64,000 nt of DNA, taken from contig JAACJP010000003.1 of the NCBI GenBank assembly GCA_013368375.1, positions 1,488,001 through 1,552,000 of the forward strand, written 5' to 3'. Positions within the stretch are counted from its first letter, which is position 1, and each line of letters opens with the position of its first letter. Under the pieces are notes generated by a model that was not told the DNA's origin, searched no databases, and saw only the letters and a program-made list of their open reading frames with translations. This document shows positions 31,008 through 64,000 of this stretch, in pieces. The position numbers and the translations under genes were made by a program. The DNA comes from Tricholomella constricta. Taxonomy: Eukaryota > Basidiomycota > Agaricomycetes > Agaricales > Lyophyllaceae.

Positions 31008-34000
31008 CTAGCTGAACGCAAAGCCTTCGCCACCCTCGTTGATCGCCAGTAACAGCTGTTGTCGGAGCATTTCATACGACGTATATCGGGGAAGATCAAT
31101 CTGGTTGAAGCCTATGAAAGGAGTGGGATCAGCGACCGTGCCCAGCACAAGGAAAAGCTTGATCATACATGTATGAGCTTGTGGTAGTCGATCTGACGCT
31201 CCATATGCCTTGTGGATGGAAAATCTTTGGACGCCTTGCACGCCTTGCAGATCGACGAATCCGCTGAGCGGCACACGGGATGTGCCGGTCGCGAAACTGA
31301 GGACCTTGGCGCGCTCGTCCCGGTTGAAGGACTTGAGTGCTCGCCACCACCAGACGATGTTCGGATCGGAGCTGCTATATCCGTTGTACTCTGTGGCAGC
31401 CCGCCATTCGTCCACATCAATATCGGGTGTACCGGAAATGAGGAGCTCAAGTTCTTGCTCGTTAAACTGGGTGAAGGAGATGGATTAGTTCGCAGAAGCG
31501 ACGGAAGCTTAGATATACGAACGATTTGAATAAGATCCTTGGGAATGATCTCATAGAATCCACTTGATAGGCTCTCAATTTGCTGATGGATAGAAGAATA
31601 GAGCCGGTACTGGGCAGAGAGCTGCACAAACTCTCGCCGATTCTCCTGCGTCACAGATATATGTTCGCCGCCTTCTTTCAGGGGTACAATGCGATTGACA
31701 CCAAACTAGTCAAATGCGTCAGTCAGCCAGGAAACCATTCTCGAAATCAGGACACGTACCTCGTCCGCCTCGACGCTGAAATTCAAATCCAGAGGAGTTG
31801 GATCGTTCTCAAGAATCCAGCACAATGAGTTGTAGTACTCGGGATCCACCCACTCGACATCTTTGTAGTCCACCGGCTTGCCCAGGAGCTGCCTGTACAA
31901 GCTGCGCGCAAAATAGGCATCGAGGAGCCGCCCATCGTAGATGGCCTTGCCAATGACACGACCCACAAATTTGAAGAACGACAGATGCTCGGGGTTGACC
32001 CACGAGTTCTTGTTGGGCTGATAGGTAAGCTTGTCGGCAGCGCATGGCTGGAACAGAGCATTGTTCGGGTCGAACATCTGCCGAGCGAGGATCTGGAACC
32101 ACTCCCGTGTCACACCACCCGCGTCCACACCTTCTTCATCGTAGAACCGCACGCTGAGTTTGCCATACTTGATCTGCTCGCCGGTCTTGCGCTGCAGATA
32201 CTGGAAGCTGTCCTCGAATACCCGGGCTCTGCGAACATTGAGCTGCAATGTGCCATGATGTTCTCGGGAATGGGGGCGTCGGTGAAGCTGCTGGTTGAAG
32301 TAATTCCGTTTGTTGTCGAAGTCGAGGACTCGGGGATTGTGGACGAGTAGAGAGAATGAACCACTCATTAAGGAAGGATTGTTGCGGACCATGAGGTTGA
32401 GAACTTTCCTGTGGTTGTCGGTGAACGTGACGAAAAGGTCCTCCATGGACTCCCCGGATGTCGTGGGCGACCTCGGTGAAGAAGATGCACGCAATGCCCG
32501 AGCAACGCTGGCAGCTGATCCCTTGGAGCCGACATATTTGCAGACGACCATCAAGGCTTCAATGAGAGGCAAAAGAACCGTGGCGATATGTTCCGTCTCC
32601 GGCTTCTCCTCAATGACAGACAAGCAATTTCCAAGCCGTTGCCAAAGACCTGCGAACTGGAACGATTCATAGATGTTTTGCACTTTCTCGACATCTTCGT
32701 TGTTGACTGCCTCTACAGGCACCGATGATTTGGGAGTGTACATGTAGTCGATGGTCTTCAGAACGCGAAGGAGCTTTGCTTGCACTGAAGATGCAGGAGA
32801 GAATTTGGCGGCGACGGAAGAAACGAGGAGGTCGCCTTGAGATCCTTCCAATGCAAGAGCAAGCTCGTCCAAGTCCGACGATAGGCCCTGCCCAGCTTCT
32901 TGTGCCTTCGCCTTCAGTTCCTGTGCAATGACGTCTCGGGCCTCGGGGATATAGGAAAGATGTTGGATGAGAGCCAAACTTTGCTGGAATGTCCGCCCTG
33001 AACATTCGCCAACTGTGAGGATGTTGACGATGAAGCGTAAGACAACATGGGGAATTTGAGGAGGATTGGCCAAAAGAATTTTCTCCTCTACTGCCTCGAT
33101 GGATAGGTCACGGTCTTTGGATGGAGGGGCTTGAATGGTCGATTCTGCAGGAGCATCCCCTTCATAATGACTGTCAGCGCGAGCTTGACACAAGGAAATA
33201 AAACACACCACCTGTTGATCCAGCAGCTGCTGACTGTCCTTGAGGTGTCTGCTCTGGTGGAGGGGCCGAAGTTCCCTCATCTTCTGTTACCTGCATCGGC
33301 ACTGGATCTGATTCTGGAGGAGCGGTAGTGGCACTAGGCGCCGACGCCTTGGATTCCGTTGGTTTCTTGTCCTTCAAACTGGCAAGGGGTCGCGTTACTG
33401 TGGCGAGAAGCCCTACGACAGACTCCATGATAGCAGGCGTCTTGAGAAGCGATTGCCGGTCTAGCAGGCCAAGCAAGAGGACAATGGGATAGTGTGTTTG
33501 GGGCATCTGTTTCTCTTTACCTTTGCCCTTCTTAGACGTCGACCGACGGAGGCCGGCTGGGAGTTCGTGTTCGGTTAAGAAGAAGAGGGAAGACAATTCG
33601 TTCGAGCTGACGATGTAAGTCAAGGCTTCGAGACACCGCTGGACGATCAGATCTGGGACAACTTCATTCTGCGAATTGTTGATGGCTAGTCCCGTCAAGT
33701 ATTCCGATCCCGCTTTCTGTTTGCCTAAGGTTTTGGCCGTTGGGGGCTTAGTATTCCGGAAAGACATCTGTGCAAAGCTCTTGTCGACAGCAGCGAGGTC
33801 TCCAGTTCCATCTTGCAAGATGCTGAGCAAGAGGTTGAACAACTCAGTGCGTGTTTTGGCGTTTTCACAGAGGTTGACAAGAACTTTAAACAGTAAGGTC
33901 TTCTTCAAGACGTGAGGGAAGAACAAAAGTCGCACAAGCACGGCAACTCCAACTTTGTCAAGGAGCTGTATGGCATCGTGCTGCGGTGCAAGCTTTCGGG

Positions 34001-37000
34001 GAGCGTGCGCAGATGCAGGCGGGTGTCCCCGAATAGCTGATTGTCGGGCAAGTCGAGTACTTGGCTGAAGGCCATCGCGGAAGGATCCAACTTCGGCAAG
34101 CATGTGCGACGGAAGGCTTTGAATGAAACCTTCATCTTGTTCCATGAGAACGGTCTGACGAAGGGTAGGGTCAAGGCTAGCAAGGAAGCTCGCATTGTCG
34201 ATCTCTGCCGCAACTCCTGTGGGTGCACGTGCCCTCTGCAAAGCTTCTTGCTGAATGATCTCCGCGCGAATTTCAGGCGGTAATGCGTCAAGGAATTCAG
34301 AGCTGATTTGGGAATCGGCAGGTCGTTCTACCCTTGCAGCTCGCTGATCGCGTACATGCTGGTTCAAAACTTCCTCTCTCATGTCGTCGGGTAGTGCTTC
34401 CAAGAATGTAGGGTCGATCCCAGTCTCAGTGATATCCACCGCACTTCCGTGTATCATGACTGTGACGCGTTCGACGGGTGCTGGGGCGGACGTTGATTCT
34501 GCGGGTAAAGAAGAGGTACCGGCTTCTCCTTGCACAGGCGATTGATCTTCGGCGGGGGTGGCGTCCACCATGTCAGCGTCCGAGTCGACTGGGGCAGACA
34601 CGACAGTTGTGGCGTCCTCCATAGGTTCATCCTGATGGATTGCTGCCGCTGGCGGGACCGCAGGCTCAACGTTTGAAACGGCCTCTGGAGCAGCCAAAGC
34701 AGACGACTGTGTTGCTTCCACCTCTGCTGCGTCTGCGTCTGCTTTTGCCTTTGCCTTCGCGTCCTCGACTTCCTTGGCCAATGCTTCCGCCTTCACCTTC
34801 TCTTCAGCCTCCGCCTTTGCGCGGGCTTCAGCCGCCTCTCGTTCTACACGTTGCTTCTCCTCAAGAGCTTTGGCACGCTTGAGAGCTTCAAGAGCAGCTG
34901 GAAGTAATGCTAGGATGACGTGGTTCGTAAATTTGCTCAGGCGCTCCGTCACAAATTCGCCGTTGAGAATCTTGACTTCTTGTGCCCATCTCTGCGAGGT
35001 GAGCAATGGATCGAGTTCACGGCCAATTCGATCGTGGGAAGGAGGCTCAACACGGATGGCTGCTGAGAAGCTTCCATGTGGGCCGCGTCGTTGCTGAAGG
35101 TATCCTCGATCAAGATTCATGACAGCACCGGCAGGAACGTCAAGGCGAATAGTTTCCGCGCCGCCAGCACCTCGGCCGCGGCTCATAATATGGTGGAAAA
35201 GCTGAACCGCCCCTCCGCCGATGAGATCGTCGATGGTTTGAAGAAGCTCAGCACTTCCGCTGGCAACTATACGCTGTGGTTGACGGGTACCTCGAGGTTG
35301 ATTCGAAGGAGTGCGATGGCCAGGAGTAGATGTGTCGAGAAGAAGAGGATGGGTCGTTGCCTCTGGCTGGATAGCAGAACTGTTGCGAGCACGACCAAAA
35401 ACGTGGCCGTCATCCACTAGCCCAATAATCAACGATGGAACAACCAACAAAGGTGCTGGTACTTACTGATAGGCCGGCCACGATGCACGAAAACCCCACC
35501 GTCCCGACTGACGAAAGCATCTCCGTAGCCAAATTCTTCTCCATTCACAGCGCCGTTCTCAAGCGCATAGTCTTCTTCATCGGAACCCATATCATCGGCT
35601 TCATTGTCCTCTTCGTGAATAATTTGAATCGGAACTGGGGTTAGATGGTCAGTAATATACCACCAGGAGTGCAGACGTCATACCAATATGATTATGCTCG
35701 TCATCTTCATCCATATTACCTCTTCCCAGTCGTACGCCATCAATCTCACCCCGAATATCCTGATATGACATAAGTTGAGATTCTGGGAGAACCTTAAGCC
35801 CACGTACCTGCCACATCATATCCTCCTCATCTTCATCTTCTCCTTCATCCTCGACATGATGATCATCGCCCTCTTCATCATCTTCTTCGTCTTCATTCTC
35901 TACAAGGTCCTCTTCTTCCTCTTCACCATCATCCCACTCCTCCCCAGAGCCACGTGTTTCGTCGACGTCCTCCTCACCCTCGTCCTCGGTGTTCGATGTG
36001 TCCTCACTACCGGTTTCTTCACCAAAGTCCATTTCAACGTCCTCGTCCTCATCTCCTTCATCCTCGTCCATTTCGTCTTCATCGCCATAATGGGCGTCGT
36101 CCATCTCCTGTGTTGTGGTAGCGAGATTACTTCGAATCCTCTTTTCTGTAATAAAGAATCACATACCCCGCCATACATGCCGAGTGCCGAGTTGCGGTAC
36201 AGATCCGGCGTTTCTTCACGACCCACGTCCTCCGTTTCTGAGCCATCCTCTTCGTCTGATTCATTTGAGGAAACACTTTCTGCTTTTGTGCCTTCAAGAG
36301 CTTCCTTGTTTTTGCCGGAAGACCTGCTCATCTTGATCGCTATTTTTGTCCTAAAGCACAGATCAGTAGTTTGGTAAGCCAAGCAGTTCATATCCTTACA
36401 AATATTCAAGAGGCCGCAGAATCGATGGCACCAATCCACGGATATTTGGGTAATTGAGGTCGATCTCAGAAAGAGCCGTCGTGAGAGTGGCGACGAAGTT
36501 TTTCTCGAGCATGACCTTGGCAATGTGTGTCGGGTTGTCGTCAACCTGTTTACGCGAGACTGAATTGAATTTAACTGTAAGTAAACGATGGCACAGGTCT
36601 GCGAGGGCTAGGAGTCGGCCATAGCGAGCGTCCACATTGTCAGTAGGCGGTGGGTCCTTAATCGCACGACTGACAGCCTCCAACACGAACTTCCGGACAG
36701 ACACCAAGTCTGAGGATAGCTCCTTCACTTCATGATTTGTTGTGCTATCCACACACAGAGCGACGATGACAGACATCGCCCAATTACAGACGGCGATGCG
36801 TTTGCGGGCTCGGCTGTCCGGTTGAGGGTAGATCGTCCCAAAGGTGACGAGATCGTTCAGCAAGAACTGAAGGGTGCCACTTCTGTACTTGCTGGGCTCC
36901 TTGGCTGGCGTTTGTGTGCGTTTCTTCGGCGAATATGAAAGGAAGGCAACTTTGCAAGAGTCGTACGAGAAGAGCAATTCGCTCAGGCATTGCATGATGA

Positions 37001-40000
37001 AGGAAACGTAGTCGTAGAGATCGTGTTTGGATTCTTGAGATGGCGGCGCATCTGGACCCTGAGTCGATGGGACCGTCGCTGCTCGTGTCGCTTCATTGCC
37101 TGTCGTCGTTTTCTGTGCCACGGTGTCGGGGTCGCTGGGTTCCGGAGGTGAAGGCGTAGGATGCTCATTGACGGTCTTCATCGTGGTCATGAGTTCCCCG
37201 ATCAATGCATGTATCACGCTCTCGGCTGAAGCATTAGACGGGGAGATTGACGGTGTTGATGTCACTGGTTGGTCAACCTGCATCTCCGCGACGCCTTCAA
37301 CGTCAGACTTTCTCTCTTCAACCGCGGGAGGTTCATGTTTGAGGCTGATATGTGGCGAGGAAGAATAAGGCGAGCCCAGTTCGCAGAGAGAAGACGTGAC
37401 CTCGAGGAAGATCTCTGAATTGCGGAGAGCAAGAGCGCTACAGTTCCTTACGTAGCTGGAAACATCGACGACGCGAGTCCGAGGCTGGGCAAAGTAGCGC
37501 TTGACGGTGTGCTGCATGATTTGGCGAAGAGTCTGGGAATCCTCAACGACATGGCGAAGAATGGTCGCAATATACGATGAACTGCCGGCCACGGATGATT
37601 CTCTGACACGCTTGAGAAGGAGCGAGATACCATCGCGTTTGAGGAATTGCGTTGCCATATCGTAATCCCGAGAAAGGAGGACGAGAAGTCGCAGGACTGA
37701 AAGGAATTCATCTCCGGGTAAGCCGGTTGTGCCAAGGAGCCGCACACAGAAGTCGAAGACGATAGCCTTTGCTTCTGTAAGAGGGGGACCAACTGAAATG
37801 GCATTCGGAACGATAGGCTCTCCTTCTCTGGGGAGTGTAATGGCACGCGGCTCCGCTGCAAGGGTAAACAACGCTTCCGTGACCAGAAGATGTGTTGCCA
37901 GCCATCGCGGAGGGTGGTCTGGGTGGTCAACACTGGACAACAACAAAGCCAAAAGGCTGTCCATTAGAGTGGCCCGTACTTCTTGGCTGAGAAGCGACGG
38001 CGATTCGGAAAGTACCAAGGCCAGGAGACGACACCTATTGGCCAGCGGCTGCTCCTGAACGTCGTACGCGAATGGAGAGAATGCTTTAATATCATCGACG
38101 AGATCTTGAACAGCTTGTTGGCGGTGTGCGCTGTTTGAACGAACGAATATGACATGGAGCTCAAAGAGCAAGGAGACGTGCTCGTCGATGAGTAAGAGCG
38201 CTTGACGACTAAAGCCTGCGCGAAGCGACTCTCGCGCCTCATCTAATTCCTTCCGCCACTGCTCGGCCGTCTTTCCAGGCGCCACTTCGGGCTCAGCAGG
38301 AGGCGCTGGTGGCGGCGACTCAGCAGGTTCTTCCTGTGGCGCAATAATGGCTTCTTGGGCAGAAGCAGCTGGTGCAGCAGCTTCAGCAGGAGCTAAATCC
38401 TCCTCTGGTTCAGGATCAGGTGGCAAAGGGAATGGCTGGGAAAGAAGGAGCTCAGTGGCCGCGTTGAGATTGTTGCCCGTACGCATGAGAGCACGCTCGA
38501 CGGCAGAACGCGGGAAGCCCATGTCCATCAGGATTTGAACACGACTCTCATCAGGACCAGGAGGACGTGTTGGCATGATGGTCGGCGGCGCGGCAACGTC
38601 GATCAAAGAGACTTCCCCCTTGACTTCCTCTCCCTCCCCACTCACGAGCTCCAAGAGGGCCTTGACGACAGACTTGCTGACATTGAGCGGCGCAGAGATC
38701 AGCCATGGGGCCTCCCACAGTTCTTCCAGAAGGGGCAGGACCGCAGTGCGCAGCCTCACCAGAAAGTTGTGGGCTTCAAAATACCCGGGATCTGTGTCCT
38801 TCTTGTCGCGAGTGAGCAGAAGGGCCGTCTGACCCGATTCGGTCAAGGGCTTGGAGGAAATGATGGGTCGAATGAGGTGTAAGGCCACTTTCATCGCGGC
38901 GAATGCGTGGTCGAGTTCGCTCTGCTCTGGCTTCGTGCGGTCCTCCTCTTTCACTTTCATGATCCTCTCAATTGATCTCATCAAAGTCCTGCAGACGCTC
39001 AGAATTGTGTCAAAGCCGCCTGCTCGGTAAAAAGCAAGCAGCTGAACAGTGTGGAGCGTATGAGTTGTGGTCCGCTCTGAGTGTATAGTTTGTCAGCTCC
39101 GATATCAAACCGAAATAAAACTTACTGACCATCGACAAGCAAAACGGTGTACAAGCCTAACATGACGCTGTGATACGCGTACAACGATGGCACATCATCT
39201 ATGGGCCAACCATCAGAATCGACTGGTTAAAAGATTATTCTTGAAACCCACCAAAGTCTTTAACTTCAAGATGCTTAACCATCAAATTCGCTACAATGCC
39301 AGACGATTCTGCAATCTGCTTCTTCTGTGTAGGCTCAGGATTACGCCTCGCATGGAACATCTTGACCATCGCTGTACGCAAAAACAATGTCGGAAGAGGT
39401 CAACTGAGCAAGACAGAGCTACTTACCTTGGAAGAAAGGCGCCAACGCGCTGGGCAATCCATGGGTCAAATGCTTCAAAGCCACCGAGTTCAGTTCCTGA
39501 GGTCCTTCAGGCTTAGATGAATCCCTCGACGATGACACAGTGTTCGATTGAACGCCATCCATGAAATTAGGCTCGCCGTAAATGGGGTGGGATCCGCCCT
39601 CTCCATCAGGAAGGAACGTGCTAGACTGGTTCGGCGTCCTTCCCAAGGGTGAGGAAAGGGGACTGGCTTTAACTGCAATGCCGCGCGACGCAAGTCCGAC
39701 GTTGAGGGCGATGTTTTCCCAGATACTGGACCGGTGAAGGGAGCCGAGGTCTGCAACGACTTCAGGGGACGTGTTACTCATCAAGGTGAGTAGAAGTCCA
39801 ATGGCGGCCCTTCCATGCGCATAGCCGGCTGTAGAAAAGACATCCGAGAGGAGCGTGACGCGAATGTGCAAGGTGACGAGGTTTCTGAAGCGACAATTGG
39901 CCTCTTCCTCTTGCTCGGCTGTGGGAATGAATTAGTTGAAAGAGGTGGTAGATGTCAGATGATGACGAGCCTGTTATCTCGACGAGCGGTAGTAACTTGG

Positions 40001-42978
40001 AAGGCTCCTCAACTTTTTCCCAGAAGCTCCGCGTGTCGGCCAACGACTGCTTAACGAGCTTAGCCAGATGCAGCAGCGTTTCGTCAGTCGCCACTTCCGT
40101 CAGGGTCCGCATGACTTGAACCATAGAGTCTGACGCGACGCTGTTGGCATAATCGTATGGAAGGCACGGGAGACTCGTGAGTTTTCCGAGAAGTTTCAGT
40201 CCATCAGCGGCATTGATAAAGTCCCTGCAATGAGGTGTGTGTTGGAACAGGCCTTCCAGAAACTAACGCCGACAGTCAACAGCCGGTAGCGACAAGATAT
40301 CGAAGAAGCTTACCCGACCAAGGATATCAATGAAAGACACGATATGGTTATCATGTGCCTTGGGCTCCTGAAGTTCTTCCTCCTCAGACGGCGTCGCGTC
40401 TGCAGTAACCGTCTCAGATCCTGACGGAACAGCAACCGCAGCACCGCCCTCTACATCCTCCATCGCAACATCCTCGTCCTGTTGCACCTTCACAGGCACT
40501 GGTACCAAGCGATACCACTGTCTCAACTCCTTGGGAACCTCATAAGCGTTGCCGAGAGCTTCGATCTTTGTGATAGTGGCCTTGACCGCATCGAACACAG
40601 CGGCCTTGAGCGAGGGGTGGTGTCGGATGAGCTCGTCAATGGACGTTCCGATCAGGACTGCGTTCTCCTTCTCCAGCAGGACCTTCAGGTGCCGCTCGGA
40701 AGTGAAGACGGAGATGATCCCGGGGATGATACTTGGGCGTCGTGCCAGTTGTGCTTGTCCGACCTCGTTAAGACAGAGCGCGCCGATCGCGTTGGCGACA
40801 GCTTGAATGACCTAAAAGAATCGCTATTAGTTCAATGGAAGAAACCTACATTATTAACACACCTCAATTGCAGGCTCCAAGCCAGCTTCGAGAGCTTTGT
40901 AGAACGCCTCTGGCAGTGCTGCCTCCTGAATAATAGCCAGCGACGTAGGCTCATTGTGGACAAACGTCGCCATGATGTTGATAGCTAAACCATGATGAGC
41001 GAAACCGGACTGCGGAACTTTAGAATGATGCGCCTACCCAAAGGGAGGACAGTAGGCCCGAATATAATGCGATTCTCAATGATCTTCTTGATTGACTTCA
41101 GCAACGACAAATCAATGAGCCCACGAAGACCCTCTGCCGTTCCGGACGACTGCATCATGCGGTGCATCGAACGAAGGATGTGCTTCAATGCGGCGCTGCG
41201 CGCGATAGGCAGCTCACCTAGCGAAGATGTAAACTATCTGTAGCGTCAACCTGCAACTATACATACCGTGCGATCCAACTACGTCGCGCACCCGACCCGA
41301 CGCCTCATGCTCCTGGATGTTCAGGTCGACTTCGTGCTACAACCCGAGGATCACCAATTCGATCACGTGAAAGACGAGAATGCCTTCAGTAACTTACCTC
41401 GATGCGGTTGACGAGCGTCTCCACTCCGCGAGACGTGCAGAAGATGTTGAACGCATTGGTAAAGCCATATAGGATGTTATCAACGAGTTGCATGGTCTTC
41501 GACAAAACTGGAAGGCGATTCGGGAGCTTGTTGTCTATGGCCTGGATCAACAGCGGGATGAGGCCTGCGCCGACGATCATGTTTCCGCCGGATGCATGTG
41601 ACGAGATAAACGATACGAAGGACAGAAGCGCATCGATGAACGACTGGGGGAGGGTCGACGCAGGATCCGCAGCCTCAGTGAACGTCTTGCGCACGAGGGC
41701 CATAAGAATTCCATGGTTGACGCCCGCATTGACGGCGGTGAGTACCTCCTGGTTGCGTGTCCTGTAGCGCGCAAGGGAATCAAGCGCGGCGACGGCAGTG
41801 GTCTGCACGCGCACGGGGATGTTGCTATCAATCTGGAGCAGCTCTGCAATGTGGGCAATCACATCGGGTTCGTAGAGAAACAAGGAAGTCGTCGCCTGGG
41901 ACTCGGGGTGTGTGTGCCCAAAGATAGCGATGGCGAGCAGCCGAATGGTGACGAGCTTCACGCGGTCGGCCTCCTTCCCCTTTGTCAGCGCCTGCGCGGC
42001 GCGGATGCGGCACATGAGCTCGAACTTCTCGTCGTCCGGCACGGAATAAGCCTCGATAATGTCCGCAAGTATCTCCATGGTTGGTTTCGCAGCCAGCTCC
42101 TGCTCGTCGAGATGGATGTTGATCGCGCCGGAGCCCGGTGCGGCCGATGGCGCGGGAGCCTTGCGCGGGGAGCCCTGCGTTGCATCGAAAGGGTCTGTCT
42201 CCATCTTTTTCTCCTTCTCCCTTTCACCATCGGCGGCGGCGTCCGTCTTGTAGAAGCTGAAGTTGACTTCGCGCGCTTCTGCCGGGAGGGCATTGACTTC
42301 TGGGCTGCCCTTCATTTGAGCGAGATCTGCGAGGCCGATGCCGTACTCGCGTAAATGGGGCCATCTTTTCGCGAGCGACAACAGGCGGGGTGTCGAGATG
42401 CTGAGCGCATGGCTCACTGATGCCTGGGCAGAGTATTGCTGTGCAGGCCGGAGGAGGACGTTTAGGGCCAGAATGACCACGTCGAGATCCGACGAAAACA
42501 AGAGGGCGTTGAGGCGCTACATGAAGGAAAATGAGCATTGTTTGGGATGAACCGGAAAAGAGGGGTGTGTGCTCACGTCGTAGGAGTTAAACATTTTTCG
42601 GTTGGTCGAGTTCTCAAGCAAAAGACGCTCGAATCTGAGCACAGAACATACCGTCTTCTTTGTGATTGCATCGAAGACCTTCACCTGGAGTTTCTCCACA
42701 TTATAATCGCGAATGATTTCCTCCAGGACGGCGTCAAACTTGTTGAGGACTTTTATCCATGCATTGAGATCGGAGCGGGGCCATTTCCACATGTCAATCT
42801 GCGAAAGGACTTCATGGAGGTCGTTAGTCGTAGTGTTGAGAAGTTTCGTTATGAGCTCTGCAACTTGTGCAGGCTGGATATAAAGACAAGTTCCAGTCAG
42901 GTCGCGTTCGTATAGGCAGAAGTGTCTGATGAGACTAACCGGTGGAACCACCTTCTTGGATGTTCGTAGGATCTTCAT
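31008..42978 (-). CDS. TOM1: Giant HECT E3 ubiquitin ligase, Tom1/HUWE1 family
   Basis: About 12 kb of gene for a protein of roughly 3,500 residues, the usual family size. The start MKILRTSKKVVPPVS at 42978 is the conserved family N-terminus (an in-frame ATG lies 12 bp upstream). Armadillo-like N-terminal regions follow: LRFERLLLENSTNRKMFNSYD, LLRPAQQYSAQASVSHALSISTPRLLSLAKRWPHLREYG. A UBA domain (VQILMDMGFPRSAVERALMRTGNNLNAATELLL) lies near 38,430-38,560, a highly acidic Asp/Glu tract near 35,700-36,100, and the DUF4414/ubiquitin-binding repeats (DPTFLEALPDDMREEVL, SSEFLDALPPEIRAEII) near 34,270-34,420. The C-terminal HECT domain has GVTREWFQILARQMFDPNNALF, FFKFVGRVIGKAIYDGRLLDAYF and the catalytic AHT-C-FNQIDLPRYTSYEML. 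The catalytic cysteine codon is split by an intron. It ends NEGGEGFAFS. At least ten introns; I did not fix all of them. Confidence 0.94.
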
Positions 42979-58977: not shown

Positions 58978-59921
58978 ATGCGTCCTTCACCACGTCTCCT
59001 CATCTCCGGCCTAACGATCTTTACCTGGAGCGTCAGTGCTGCTTACGCCTCCGTCAACCCGTATATAACCCACACCGAGGGCATCTCACGCCGCCATCAC
59101 GACGCAGAGAAACGACAGATCCGCAACGCAGACTACGGTTCTTCCGGAAGTTCGTCGCCCAAGTCAGTCTATGACGAAAGTGAAGACAGCGTGAGAGATT
59201 CTACTGCACACGATCAGCAGTCCTCAAAGCCTTCGCGAAGCGACGAAAAGGAAAAGCGCGGTCTTTTCGAGATCGGCGATTCATTCCTTCTGGGCGCTCT
59301 TTCACTGAACGACCTATCGGATCTCCCTTTATGCGAACATCTGGTAGAATTTTTTCTGCTCAGTGGAGATCCCTACTCGGACGAAGAAGAGGGCCAGGAT
59401 ATGACAAGACGCAATGCCGGCATATCACAGCGAACATCCCAGTGCCCGGCTTGTGCTAGACGGATGGCCCCTGTGGGCACCAAAAGTATCCGTGGCTTTG
59501 CACATGTCATTTCGCGCGCCAACCATAGGCTCGAGCGCCATCGGTGGGGGGACGTCCAACACGAAAAAGGATCCATAGAGCTTCACCGAATGGGTACGAG
59601 ACAGGTCGATCGCGCCAGGAAGATTGTTTCGCCACGCAGCGATGGCAACACGATGATGACGGTTACGCCCACGTCCAGGACTGACTCAACAGGGCTCGAC
59701 AACCTCCGCATCGCACGAGGACTGAGAGAACACGATGCACCTGCGAATGATCCATCGACTCCACGTTTGCCTCGTGACCTTGGATATGATGGGCCCAGCG
59801 CCATGCGGCTTGTTAGGCGAAGAAATCAGCGGGACTCAAGCACTGTGTATGGTTCTACCAAACCCGACCACGACGAGCGAGTGAAGTTTCAGAATGATCC
59901 AAAGCTCGGCGCGTTATAGTA
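58978..59921 (+). CDS. Secreted, mostly disordered protein with dibasic Kex2-like sites, unknown function
   Basis: Intronless 313-residue ORF. A probable signal peptide (MRPSPRLLISGLTIFTWSVSAAYAS) is followed by a Ser/Asp/Arg-rich, low-complexity chain. Dibasic sites at RR38-39, KR45-46 (HDAEKR-QIRN) and KR93-94 (EKEKR-GLFEIGD) match Kex2 processing sites. A short hydrophobic stretch (SFLLGALSLNDLSDLPLCEHLVEFFLL) and a CPAC motif (near residue 160) are the only ordered-looking parts. A TATA box at 58891 and the start codon 87 bp downstream form a sensible promoter. It has no recognisable family. It is the last gene before the pheromone array, so a mating-related role is conceivable but unproven. 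Confidence 0.6.
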
Positions 59922-61010: not shown

Positions 61011-61054
61011 CCTTTGTTCCCGAAGGAGTGGCCGCCGACCTCAGAAGTATAAAA
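61010..61054 (+). promoter_or_regulatory. Promoter of pheromone gene A: HMG-type site and TATA box
   Basis: CCTTTGT (ACAAAGG on the minus strand), starting near 61011, resembles the ACAAAG core bound by HMG-box pheromone-response factors in basidiomycetes. TATAAAA lies at 61048-61054, 66 bp before the ATG. The role of the HMG-type site is inferred. Confidence 0.45.
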
Positions 61055-61113: not shown

Positions 61114-61296
61114 ATGGACTCCTTTACCACCATCGCTCAACTCGTTGCCATTGACACCGCACCCCCCGCCAACGAGGAGGGCACCGGAGGAAGCGGCACT
61201 GGCACCTACTGCGTCGTCTTCTCCAAGGAGGACGTCCCTTCCAACGAGGAAGGCACTGGAGGCAGTGGCACCGGCACCTACTGCGTTGTCGCTTGA
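61114..61296 (+). CDS. Mating pheromone precursor A, with two tandem pheromone cores
   Basis: 60 residues. The N-terminus MDSFTTIAQLVAIDTAPPANEE is the usual leader of agaricomycete pheromone precursors. The C-terminus CVVA is a farnesylation (CaaX) box, and NEE just before the core is the usual region of N-terminal cleavage. Unusually, the core NEEGTGGSGTGTYCVV occurs twice: residues 20-35, followed by F-SKEDVPS, and residues 44-59, followed by the terminal A. The two copies are identical in amino acids but differ at six silent codon positions. The mature peptide is probably about a dozen residues ending in farnesyl-Cys. It would act on a STE3-type receptor of compatible mates. The gene has a TATA promoter and a 57-bp intron just after its stop. 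Confidence 0.93.
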   Translation: MDSFTTIAQLVAIDTAPPANEEGTGGSGTGTYCVVFSKEDVPSNEEGTGGSGTGTYCVVA

Positions 61297-61340
61297 GTTA
61301 CTCGCGCACAACACCACTTCGTTCTCTCAGGGCTGTTCAA

Positions 61341-61397
61341 GTATGTGTATCTGGCAATATTTAATCAACTTAAATTCCTAACTGCTTCCATGTGCAG
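61341..61397 (+). other. Probable 3' UTR intron of pheromone gene A
   Basis: 57 bp beginning GTATGTG and ending ATGTGCAG, 44 bp after the stop codon, with CTAAC (TTCCTAACTG) as branch site. Gene B has an intron of equal length at the matching place. Confidence 0.65.
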
Positions 61398-62300
61398 CCA
61401 TTATAATTCGTTCTCTTTGGGGTTTAGGGTTTTCGTTCGCTGCCTGGGCAATGGGGAGGGAGGAACGAGCTGGAAATTCGAATCTGCTGCGGGGAGGATT
61501 TGTTGTATAACTTATGCCAATTTAACATATTCTCTGCTGTAAAACTGTCCGATGAAGCTTGTCAATTCACCTTTATGGAAAAAAAAACAGCTGATTGGCC
61601 AGCGGCCCGCACGTAACGAAGCGTCCTTTGCTGGGCGTATCGATCATCCTCCCACTTCACCAAGACCTGGCCGAAATTCCTCATATCTGTCACCCCAAAC
61701 ACACGTCGTGCACGGCAGATGTACCAGTTCCCATGGGGCGAAGCCCAGCAGAGAATGAATACCGGATCCCGGGACGGAACATTGCTTTTAGTTGCTAGCG
61801 GGCGAAGGACAATTTCCGTGGTGGACCATCGCGCCAGAAGCAGAACGGTTGGAGGTTGTATTGGGCTGTACTGGCGACTGCTGATGAGCGTAGACAATAA
61901 GCATCCACGAGATTGAATCGTGATCGGCAGGTTTTAATATGGATTAAAACGAACCTTGCAAGCCAGTCAGCCATAGATGGATAGAACGCTGGGATCGGGA
62001 ACAGATAGGTTCCGGACTGCACTTTCAGCGAAGTCTCCTGCCTATTGTGACCCTCCTGCGTCAGAGTTTTTTGGCGTACACGTATACCACCTTGACCAAA
62101 TTTGTGTGCTGATCAGTCCAGTGCCTTGATCTAACCGCAATCTTATCATGAGCGCAAGTAGTCGCGAACAAGAGCACTTTGTCTGTCTGCAAAACCCAAA
62201 AGTCATAGATGTGATGTTGTGAGCAGCTATTGTGTGATGTTACCATCAGAAGGAAACACGCAGGCTATGACATTTCGGGGACTCAAGGTCATCGATCAGC
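61398..62300. other. Spacer of the pheromone array between genes A and B
   Basis: No gene. The part near 61,440-61,480 (GGGAGGGAGGAACGAGCTGG) and the part near 61,890 (AGACAATAAGCATCCA) have counterparts after gene B (62,800 and 63,268). The spacer therefore belongs to a duplicated unit of about 1.35-1.4 kb. Confidence 0.6.
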
Positions 62301-62407
62301 ATTGTCGGCCACTCGGTCTCGGTGCCCGCATGCCGGCGCCAGCGTCCACGGGACATAGCACACCTTGTCTTCCTGATTAGACGACCCAGGGATTACGAGG
62401 TATAAAA
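62300..62407 (+). promoter_or_regulatory. Promoter of pheromone gene B
   Basis: CATTGT (ACAATG on the minus strand) at 62300 is followed by a block (CCACTCGGTCTCGGTGCCCG...) shared with gene C, then TATAAAA at 62401-62407, 59 bp before the ATG. An out-of-frame ATG at 62425 lies only 24 bp after the TATA box and may be upstream of the transcription start. Confidence 0.5.
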
Positions 62408-62459
62408 TCAGCGACAAAGCAACGATGAACGGCAGGCTCGCCTACTCATCACATCTGCA

Positions 62460-62636
62460 ATGGATTCCTTCACCACCGTCGCTCAACTCGTCGCCATCGA
62501 CACTGCTCCCCCCATCAACGAGGAGGACGGAGGCAGCGGCACAGGCACCTACTGCGTCGTTTTCGCCAAAGAAGACCTCCCTTCCAACGAGGAAGACGGA
62601 GGCAGTGGCACAGGCACCTACTGCGTCGTTGCTTGA
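62460..62636 (+). CDS. Mating pheromone precursor B, with two tandem pheromone cores
   Basis: 58 residues, paralogue of gene A. The leader MDSFTTVAQLVAIDTAPPINEE is followed by core NEEDGGSGTGTYCVV twice: residues 20-34, then F-AKEDLPS, and residues 43-57, then terminal A. The C-terminal CVVA is the CaaX box. The two copies differ at two silent positions only (GAG/GAA and AGC/AGT). The core differs from that of gene A (EDGG against EGTGG), so the mature peptide is different. It lies 1,346 bp downstream of gene A, start to start. An overlapping frame opening at 62425 covers the same DNA but makes a low-complexity Pro/Ser/Thr/Ala product and is not considered a gene. Confidence 0.93.
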   Translation: MDSFTTVAQLVAIDTAPPINEEDGGSGTGTYCVVFAKEDLPSNEEDGGSGTGTYCVVA

Positions 62637-62679
62637 GATGCTCGCACGCGCAACACTTCGTTCTTCGGGAAGCTATCCA

Positions 62680-62736
62680 GTGAGTACCCCTCTGGCTAGA
62701 TTGCAATTGAAGCCTGACTGTCCCGCTCCATCGCAG
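62680..62736 (+). other. Probable 3' UTR intron of pheromone gene B
   Basis: 57 bp beginning GTGAGTAC and ending CATCGCAG, 43 bp after the stop codon, with CTGAC as a branch-like site. Same length and place as in gene A. Confidence 0.65.
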
Positions 62737-63690
62737 CTATCGTGAATTGCTTCTCTTTTTGGTTTTCCACGAGCTACTTTATCATAAATGGGGAAGGAGG
62801 GAGGAACTGGAAAATTCGAATTCGCCACACGGAGAATTGTCACATATCATTATATATCAATTTATGACATTTTTATAAACTTCCTGTCCAAAGAAGCAAG
62901 TCAGTTATCTTTTACGAGGCAACACCGATGATTTACCTCTCCCTGAATACGATATTCGACATGTTCAGACGCATATTGCCTTTGGCTCGATGAAAATACG
63001 GTCGCTGGCTTGTCCATGTCGTTTTCGCACTCCAATCAGGCGCTGTTCCGTACTTGAGACTTCGCAAATCCTGGGCCTATGACCTAAACCCGTCTCTCAC
63101 AAGAGCCTTCGTGTAGTAGTTGACCCTCGGACGAAGATGCGCGTCCCGGCGATAACAGAGGGCATTCGTCTGCCTAGCGCGGCATACTTGCTGGAGTGAC
63201 CTCGCTGAGTCACAGAGTGGCCGGCTTAGAGACGATGTATGTCATAGGTAACGAGGCCTGAGGCGAAGACAATAAGCGTCCATCGAGATAAGATCGGAGT
63301 GATCGTGAGAGTTAAATTCGAATTTGAAACTAAGCTGATGCTTTGTCCAGCGAGTGGCCAATTAGTGGCTAGAGTGCTGATCCGCGAAAAGGTAAACACG
63401 TACGGCGGCTTTCCGTCATCTTCAATTGTTGAAAGGGTCTTCATAGGGACCCTCTGACCTCATAGGGTGTGGCGTACACTGCGCGGGACATATTTCATGT
63501 ACCTTAGCACACCCTGTGCCAATGAGGTTCGACTCGTGAATCTGAAAATAGCTTAGTCGTAAACAAGGGCGTATTGTGTGCGAAGACCAAATTGCGAAAA
63601 CAGTGATAGTCGATTTTGTGCACACCTTGCACAATGGCCCCATTAGAAGGGAATCAACACGGCATGACATGCAGGGGATTCAAGCGGTTC
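62737..63690. other. Spacer of the pheromone array between genes B and C
   Basis: No gene. It is a diverged counterpart of the A-B spacer, and the promoter block of gene C begins at its right end. Confidence 0.55.
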
Positions 63691-63696
63691 GACCAG

Positions 63697-63805
63697 CTTT
63701 GTCGGCCACTCGGTCTCGGTGCCCGCATGCCGACGTCAGCGTCCACGGGACACAGCACACCTTGTCTTCCTGATTATACGATCCAGGGATTAAGAGGTAT
63801 AAAAA
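63697..63805 (+). promoter_or_regulatory. Promoter of pheromone gene C
   Basis: CTTTGT (ACAAAG on the minus strand) at 63697 stands at the place of CATTGT in gene B. The next 160 bp are nearly identical to gene B, including GCATGCC, the CCTTGTCTTCCTGATTA block and TATAAAAA at 63798. Confidence 0.5.
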
Positions 63806-63857
63806 TCAGCGACAAAGCAACGATGAACGGCAGGCTCGCCTACTCATCACATCTGCA

Positions 63858-64000
63858 ATGGATTCCTTCACCACCGTCGCTCAACTCGTCGCCATCGACA
63901 CTGCTCCCCCTATTAACGAGGAGGACGGCGGAGGCAGCGGCACTGGCACCTACTGTGTCGTCTTCGCCAAGGAAGACCTCCCTTCCAACGAGGAAGACGG
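63858..64000 (+). CDS. Mating pheromone precursor C (cut by the window end)
   Basis: Third member of the array, 1,398 bp after gene B start to start. It reads MDSFTTVAQLVAIDTAPPINEED, then core NEEDGGGSGTGTYCVV followed by F-AKEDLPSNEED, at which the window ends. The second core and CaaX box lie beyond it. The first core has one Gly more than that of gene B. The leader is nearly identical to gene B, so B and C are the more recent pair. Confidence 0.9.
   Translation, partial: MDSFTTVAQLVAIDTAPPINEEDGGGSGTGTYCVVFAKEDLPSNEED

Follow-up and report, generated by a model that had tools for sequence, protein, structure and literature searches.

A tandem array of four tiny pheromone-precursor genes, all in one orientation, begins near the right end of the stretch of the Tricholomella constricta genome analysed here (the window: 64,000 nucleotides, C3:1488001-1552000; the genome comprises 44.09 Mb on 118 contigs). 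Genes 1 and 2 are complete in the window, gene 3 is cut by its end and gene 4 lies beyond it; the start-to-start distances are 1346 bases from gene 1 to gene 2 and 1398 bases from gene 2 to gene 3. Each precursor carries its peptide core and the CaaX box that follows it (Cys, two aliphatic residues and a residue X) twice, as two units parted by a short linker. The features of the array are given below, in window coordinates unless C3 is stated.

61048..61054, + strand: TATA box of gene 1 (TATAAAA), 66 nucleotides (nt) 5′ of the ATG
61114..61296, + strand: two-core precursor gene 1, 60 amino acids and stop; PF08015, 39.4 bits
61171..61221, + strand: gene 1 unit 1, NEEGTGGSGTGTYC-VVF; internal box CVVF, or CVVFS as five residues
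61222..61242, + strand: gene 1 linker, SKEDVPS
61243..61293, + strand: gene 1 unit 2, NEEGTGGSGTGTYC-VVA, terminal CaaX box; 6 synonymous and 0 non-synonymous codon differences from unit 1
61341..61397, + strand: candidate intron in the 3′ untranslated region (3′UTR) of gene 1, GTATGT...CTAAC...CAG, 57 nt, beginning 45 nt past the stop; predicted from sequence
62401..62407, + strand: TATA box of gene 2
62460..62636, + strand: two-core precursor gene 2, 58 amino acids and stop; PF08015, 34.1 bits
62517..62564, + strand: gene 2 unit 1, NEEDGGSGTGTYC-VVF
62586..62633, + strand: gene 2 unit 2, NEEDGGSGTGTYC-VVA; 2 synonymous and 0 non-synonymous codon differences from unit 1
62680..62736, + strand: candidate 3′UTR intron of gene 2, GTGAGT...CTGAC...CAG, 57 nt; predicted from sequence
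63798..63804, + strand: TATA box of gene 3
63858..64000, + strand: two-core precursor gene 3, cut at the window end; complete in the genome at C3:1551858-1552040, 60 amino acids
63915..63965, + strand: gene 3 unit 1, NEEDGGGSGTGTYC-VVF
63987..64000, + strand: start of gene 3 unit 2 (NEED..., the rest outside the window)
C3:1553046-1553219, outside the window: two-core precursor gene 4

The products of the two complete genes are MDSFTTIAQLVAIDTAPPANEEGTGGSGTGTYCVVFSKEDVPSNEEGTGGSGTGTYCVVA (gene 1) and MDSFTTVAQLVAIDTAPPINEEDGGSGTGTYCVVFAKEDLPSNEEDGGSGTGTYCVVA (gene 2). All four precursors start with MDSF, continue with NEE-core-YCVVF and a linker (SKEDVPS, AKEDLPS or AKEDVPS across the array) and end in NEE-core-YCVVA. 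Their cores, in gene order NEEGTGGSGTGTYC, NEEDGGSGTGTYC, NEEDGGGSGTGTYC and NEEGGGSGTGTYC, are identical in the two units of each gene. The first-pass annotation had described NEE-core-YCVV as present twice in both complete precursors, with F and an SKED or AKED linker after the first unit and CVVA closing the second, and had noted the first unit and linker of gene 3 before the window ends; the translations bear this out, the genomic sequence completes gene 3, and gene 4 has the same design. In genes 2-4 the TATA box lies 59-60 nt 5′ of the ATG. Candidate 3′UTR introns are predicted in all four genes, starting 43-45 nt past the stop; in each, the donor reads GT[ACG]NGT, the branch site resembles CTAAC and the acceptor is CAG.

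Between unit 1 and unit 2 there are 6, 2, 6 and 3 codon differences in genes 1 to 4, and all 17 are synonymous. Counted once per position and codon pair, they amount to 10 events; with a neutral silent share of 0.24-0.26, the chance that 10 of 10 are silent is about 1e-6. In every gene of the array, GAG/GAA and AGC/AGT tell the two units apart, and the unit duplication is therefore older than the gene duplications. Core residues are not the same in every gene, and where they change, both units change together. The likeness of the units within a gene is maintained by selection for matching peptides or else by short gene conversion; the silent differences between units speak against a recent wholesale conversion.

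Relation to known pheromone precursors

The three array translations from the window all lie above the gathering score of PF08015, the Pfam Pheromone family (22 bits), the truncated third scoring 23.2 bits, and the database entry for the complete gene 3 product (P0002) carries the PF08015 label. Searching the 44 Mb genome with a degenerate core pattern turned up 13 matches, namely the eight array units, three single-unit precursors on contig C26 and two matches on C21. The reversed control pattern gave one match, so the array units are not a chance pattern.

Members of PF08015 described from Agaricus bisporus, Coprinopsis cinerea and Laccaria bicolor as G-rich, non-mating-type precursors share with the array an MDS/AF start, a charged dipeptide, a G-rich core running to YC and a C-terminal CaaX box (PMC8305134). 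The array genes follow this precursor rule in 4/4 cases, with MDSF at the start, NEE supplying the dipeptide placed 11-13 residues before the mature end, and CVVA at the C-terminus; compared by eye, EEGTGGSGTGTYC and its variants fit the published non-mating-type consensus GGGSGNGAYC/GGGSGNNAYC (PMC8305134). The likeness may extend to a 3′UTR intron, for which three pheromone-like genes of A. bisporus have expressed-sequence-tag support (PMC8305134) and the array genes have predicted candidates. What sets the array apart is the number of cores. The A. bisporus account gives four precursors and four mature peptides, one each (PMC8305134), whereas all four array genes encode two cores; a single core is usual in described members of the family, not defining, and the described mushroom precursors that we encountered hold one CaaX peptide each.

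Several cores in one precursor are familiar from more distant fungi. The first-pass annotation had likened the array to the precursors of rhodotorucine A, and the comparison is apt, as the array precursors too have cores, two in each, parted by CaaX-like spacers. The core sequences of the rhodotorucine A precursors and of the h-type precursors HPP1/Ppg2 presumably both differ from that of the array. In the RHA genes of Rhodosporidium and its relatives, several cores of a prenylated peptide alternate with CaaX-like spacers (PMC3068285, PMC3236058); these genes, likened here by description and not by sequence, differ in lying in the mating-type region (PMC3236058). Multi-core precursors of this kind, credited earlier to Rhodosporidium, are indeed known there, and the cited accounts extend them to Puccinia MFA1, Microbotryum, red yeasts, HPP1 of Hypocreales and Ppg2 of Verticillium. 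MFA1 of cereal rusts and the Microbotryum precursors likewise hold tandem cores, with the difference that MFA1 has three repeats of similar sequence and its genes are associated with the receptor STE3.2-3 (PMC10977897). HPP1/Ppg2 are also built of repeats, three to five of them, and come from ascomycetes (PMC3068285, PMC11077750); Verticillium Ppg2 further shares internal CaaX-like motifs, with K and N at putative processing sites (PMC11077750).

We propose, with a probability of roughly 0.6, that the array genes belong to the G-rich, non-mating-type pheromone-like precursors as a CaaX-type variant with two cores, and that both units mature, in the manner of the rhodotorucine A precursors.

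Two-core relatives in the database

A single-sequence search gave eight matches, all two-core, two of them genes of this genome. A profile built from ten two-core proteins, scored against the 8000 candidates sharing most words, gave 108 proteins, which with genes 2 and 4 of this genome make up the set of 110 examined. Cores were recognised by a Cys with a CaaX-like box; the motif restricted the two aliphatic positions and left X free. By this count, two cores are present in 85 of the 110 precursors (a share biased upward, as a two-core profile favours two-core matches), and 81 of these come from outside this genome, with 13 named species among them. The view of the first-pass annotation that mushrooms hold no equivalent is therefore overturned: the array is real and not unique, an instance of a widespread two-core form within a known precursor family.

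The named species with two cores are Tricholoma matsutake, Hypsizygus marmoreus, Lyophyllum shimeji, Sphagnurus paluster, a Termitomyces, Asterophora parasitica, Collybia nuda, Coprinellus micaceus, C. aureogranulatus, Candolleomyces efflorescens, C. aberdarensis, Coprinopsis marcescibilis and Hebeloma cylindrosporum. Five of them were looked up and all are Agaricales (Lyophyllaceae, Tricholomataceae, Clitocybaceae, Psathyrellaceae, Hymenogastraceae); the other eight we take to be Agaricales as well. These database proteins have the same architecture as the array precursors and differ in core residues, internal X and linker; H. marmoreus P0014 is a near named relative, with 65% precursor identity. 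Named single-core matches came from Coprinopsis cinerea, Pleurotus eryngii, Gymnopilus junonius, Crassisporium funariophilum, Panaeolus papilionaceus and Coniophora puteana.

Most two-core precursors (79/85) end exactly at the second box. Four of the six others (P0012, P0072, P0086 and P0089, the last with a short second core) have W directly after it, probably a TGA stop translated with another code, and in H. marmoreus P0014 and Asterophora P0059 the protein runs on past the box. The 25 precursors outside the two-core group comprise 19 with one core, five with a first core and a second that is truncated or frame-shifted in the database entry, and one (P0067) in which Ser replaces the Cys of the internal core.

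The first-pass annotation had also raised the possibility that the structure is common and known in the order. The first half stands for the Agaricales in this database survey and the second does not: among the matches listed in open-licence PubMed Central full text, no description of two-core mushroom precursors was found, a scope that has subscription reviews and genome papers outside it and makes a prior mention possible. The two-core variant is apparently so far undescribed.

Proposed maturation of the two units

Across the 85 two-core precursors, X of the internal box is F in 43, A in 35, S in five, T in one and C in one, with an entropy of 1.42 bits against 2.06 at the next position; in the terminal box X is A in 82. 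T at X also acts as a prenylation signal. Published signals are A, M, S and Q for farnesylation and L, I and F for geranylgeranylation, with C among the farnesyltransferase hits, and farnesyltransferase also accepts five-residue boxes ending in residues such as A, S and Q (PMC9141697). In the 43 F-type boxes the next residue is A (39), S (3) or Q (1), with K (29), R (12), H (1) or N (1) after that, so that these boxes can be read either as CVVF or as five-residue CVVFA/CVVFS, mostly ending before a basic residue. For the 42 non-F boxes the residue directly after the box is Q (13), R (10), H (10), A (5), K (3) or N (1). Over the ten residues before each Cys, the two cores of a precursor agree at a mean of 8.65 positions, whereas 2000 shuffles give 4.10 (at most 4.67); in 42/85 they are identical. 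Because the internal X is limited to F, A, S, T and C and the cores match far above shuffles, the sequences suggest that both units are probably matured. The presence in the genome of matches to the CaaX machinery families (prenyltransferase domains, ICMT, Rce1-like) also counts in favour of maturation.

Maturation would begin with an endoprotease cutting right behind the internal box, at a site that K or R follows in most F-type precursors. The cut would make this box C-terminal and would have to come first, because CaaX enzymes act on C-termini. Both boxes would then be prenylated, lose their last three residues and be carboxymethylated, and cleavage at the N/EE motif would release peptides some 12-13 residues long. 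The N ahead of EE is consistent with N-side cleavage like that of yeast a-factor. The freed peptides would be exported to act on a STE3-type receptor, and with two cores in each of four genes, more of these almost identical peptides would be made, away from the B mating-type locus. We infer maturation of both units, their lipid and receptor action from sequence features; a ligand role outside the B locus is suggested by the resemblance to non-mating-type peptides and by the distance to receptors.

Several points weigh against maturation of both units. Prenyltransferases normally require a C-terminal box, and we know of no protease for the internal cut; nor do the linkers hold a universal cleavage motif, since K or R occurs in 65/85 and neither in 20/85. 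The loss of the internal Cys in P0067 points the same way, as does the upward bias of the two-core share. The similarity of the units could come partly from gene conversion or recent origin, and a stricter control, which set each precursor's own second core against the best-matching first core from all other proteins, gave a mixed result (of 85, the own second core was the closer one in 34, level in 28 and the farther one in 23), part of which related paralogues with alike cores may explain. The enzymes that process rhodotorucine A were unknown as of 2010 (PMC3068285). How internal CaaX boxes become exposed, unsolved for rhodotorucine A at that date (PMC3068285), would become testable with the two-core genes in culturable mushrooms whose two cores are slightly unlike; T. 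matsutake P0013 and Collybia nuda P0037 are examples of precursors with differing cores. Kex2 processing of the KEP type, with repeats parted by KR or RR, is ruled out, as these pairs occur in 0/85 linkers.

It is unlikely, though worth serious thought, that the terminal unit alone gives rise to the pheromone and that the internal unit, never prenylated, serves as a leader or spacer or is a relic. Standard CaaX enzymology does work on C-terminal boxes, X is A in 82/85 terminal boxes as against F in 43/85 internal ones, and one relative (P0067) has lost the internal Cys; a relic, however, would not be expected to show 0 non-synonymous against 17 synonymous differences, a restricted internal X and a strong core match. 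We consider it improbable that the internal unit is released with a different end, either unprenylated or carrying another lipid. The 43/85 internal boxes with F would agree with this, F being a geranylgeranylation and A a farnesylation signal (PMC9141697), but as five-residue boxes they end in A (39), S (3) or Q (1), which makes farnesyl equally compatible, and the other 42/85 internal boxes have X = A, S, T or C. That F-type genes emit the same peptide with two lipids, internal CVVF directing geranylgeranyl (C20) and terminal CVVA/CTIA farnesyl (C15), seems distinctly improbable; if true, one gene would emit two signal forms differing in reach, and the retention of F in the internal box and of A in the terminal one would be accounted for.

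A single cut before the first NEE would instead leave one long bivalent lipopeptide with two receptor-binding ends. The narrow Cys-to-Cys spacing (23-26 residues in 71/85) would suit such a product, but NEE recurs before unit 2 in 4/4 of this genome's own genes and the CaaX box of unit 1 would be useless in it, and we regard this outcome as very improbable. Scarcely credible is that the apparent second unit stems from splicing or mis-assembly. GT..YAG pairs 44-116 nt apart do occur within the four coding sequences; yet 0 GT sites inside them fit GT[AG]NG, and among the pairs (40-120 nt searched) one is in frame (gene 3, 63 nt) and none equals one unit of 69-72 nt, while better intron candidates sit after the stop. 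Removal of one unit by splicing, which the first-pass annotation had named as a possible objection, is thus unlikely on these grounds, with no fitting donor and no unit-sized pair in its support. The recurrence of the two-core architecture in the 81 precursors from outside this genome speaks against splicing and mis-assembly alike.

Receptors, related genes and surroundings of the array

STE3-type receptors were searched exon by exon, and the counts are lower bounds: 28 matches fall into seven places, six on contig C19 (one, near 536 kb, partial) and one on C3. The C3 match, at C3:911390-912451, lies outside the C19 cluster and about 637 kb from the array. Identification of the array as a B mating-type pheromone gene is not supported, given this distance to the nearest STE3 match on C3 and the position of the other six places on C19.

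Receptor-centred searches would miss two-core genes where these lie elsewhere. In the accounts cited here, precursors were sought 5 kb either side of receptor genes in Hypsizygus marmoreus (PMC8686365) and up- and downstream of them in Pleurotus ostreatus (PMC12387193), and matches distant from STE3 were discarded in Trichaptum (PMC8970355). Widespread two-core genes, in this genome far from receptors, have seemingly been left as hypothetical proteins; they supply candidate ligands for non-mating STE3 receptors.

Single-unit precursors occur elsewhere in the genome. At C26:6654-9830 three G-rich ones stand in a row on the minus strand, two of them specifying NEEGTGGSGTGTYCVVA, identical to the gene 1 peptide, and the third a different one. 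The telomere repeat TTAGGG/CCCTAA was not found in the first 3000 bases of C26, which does not exclude a subtelomeric site for these genes. One more single-unit precursor lies on C15, and further diverse ones are on C19, mostly near STE3 matches. Among the CaaX machinery families, prenyltransferase domain matches lie on three contigs (C8, C10 and C21), Rce1-like has one partial match and ICMT ten, three of these on C19 at 653-686 kb. One C19 ICMT match is near STE3 and pheromone matches at about 650 kb.

Seven of the ten flanking open reading frames (ORFs) tested are without a Pfam match, and the rest resemble a protein kinase, an ABC1 kinase and a fatty acid hydroxylase. At 58978-59919 (+ strand), immediately upstream of the array, a 313-amino-acid ORF without a Pfam match has, by eye, a signal-peptide-like start, and carries KR sites in AEKR and KEKR. 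An 898-amino-acid ORF at 36396-39092 (− strand) has relatives named HUWE1 ubiquitin ligase (197 relatives found), and the long ORFs beside it on the same strand (31706-42516) may, judged by eye, belong to one gene.

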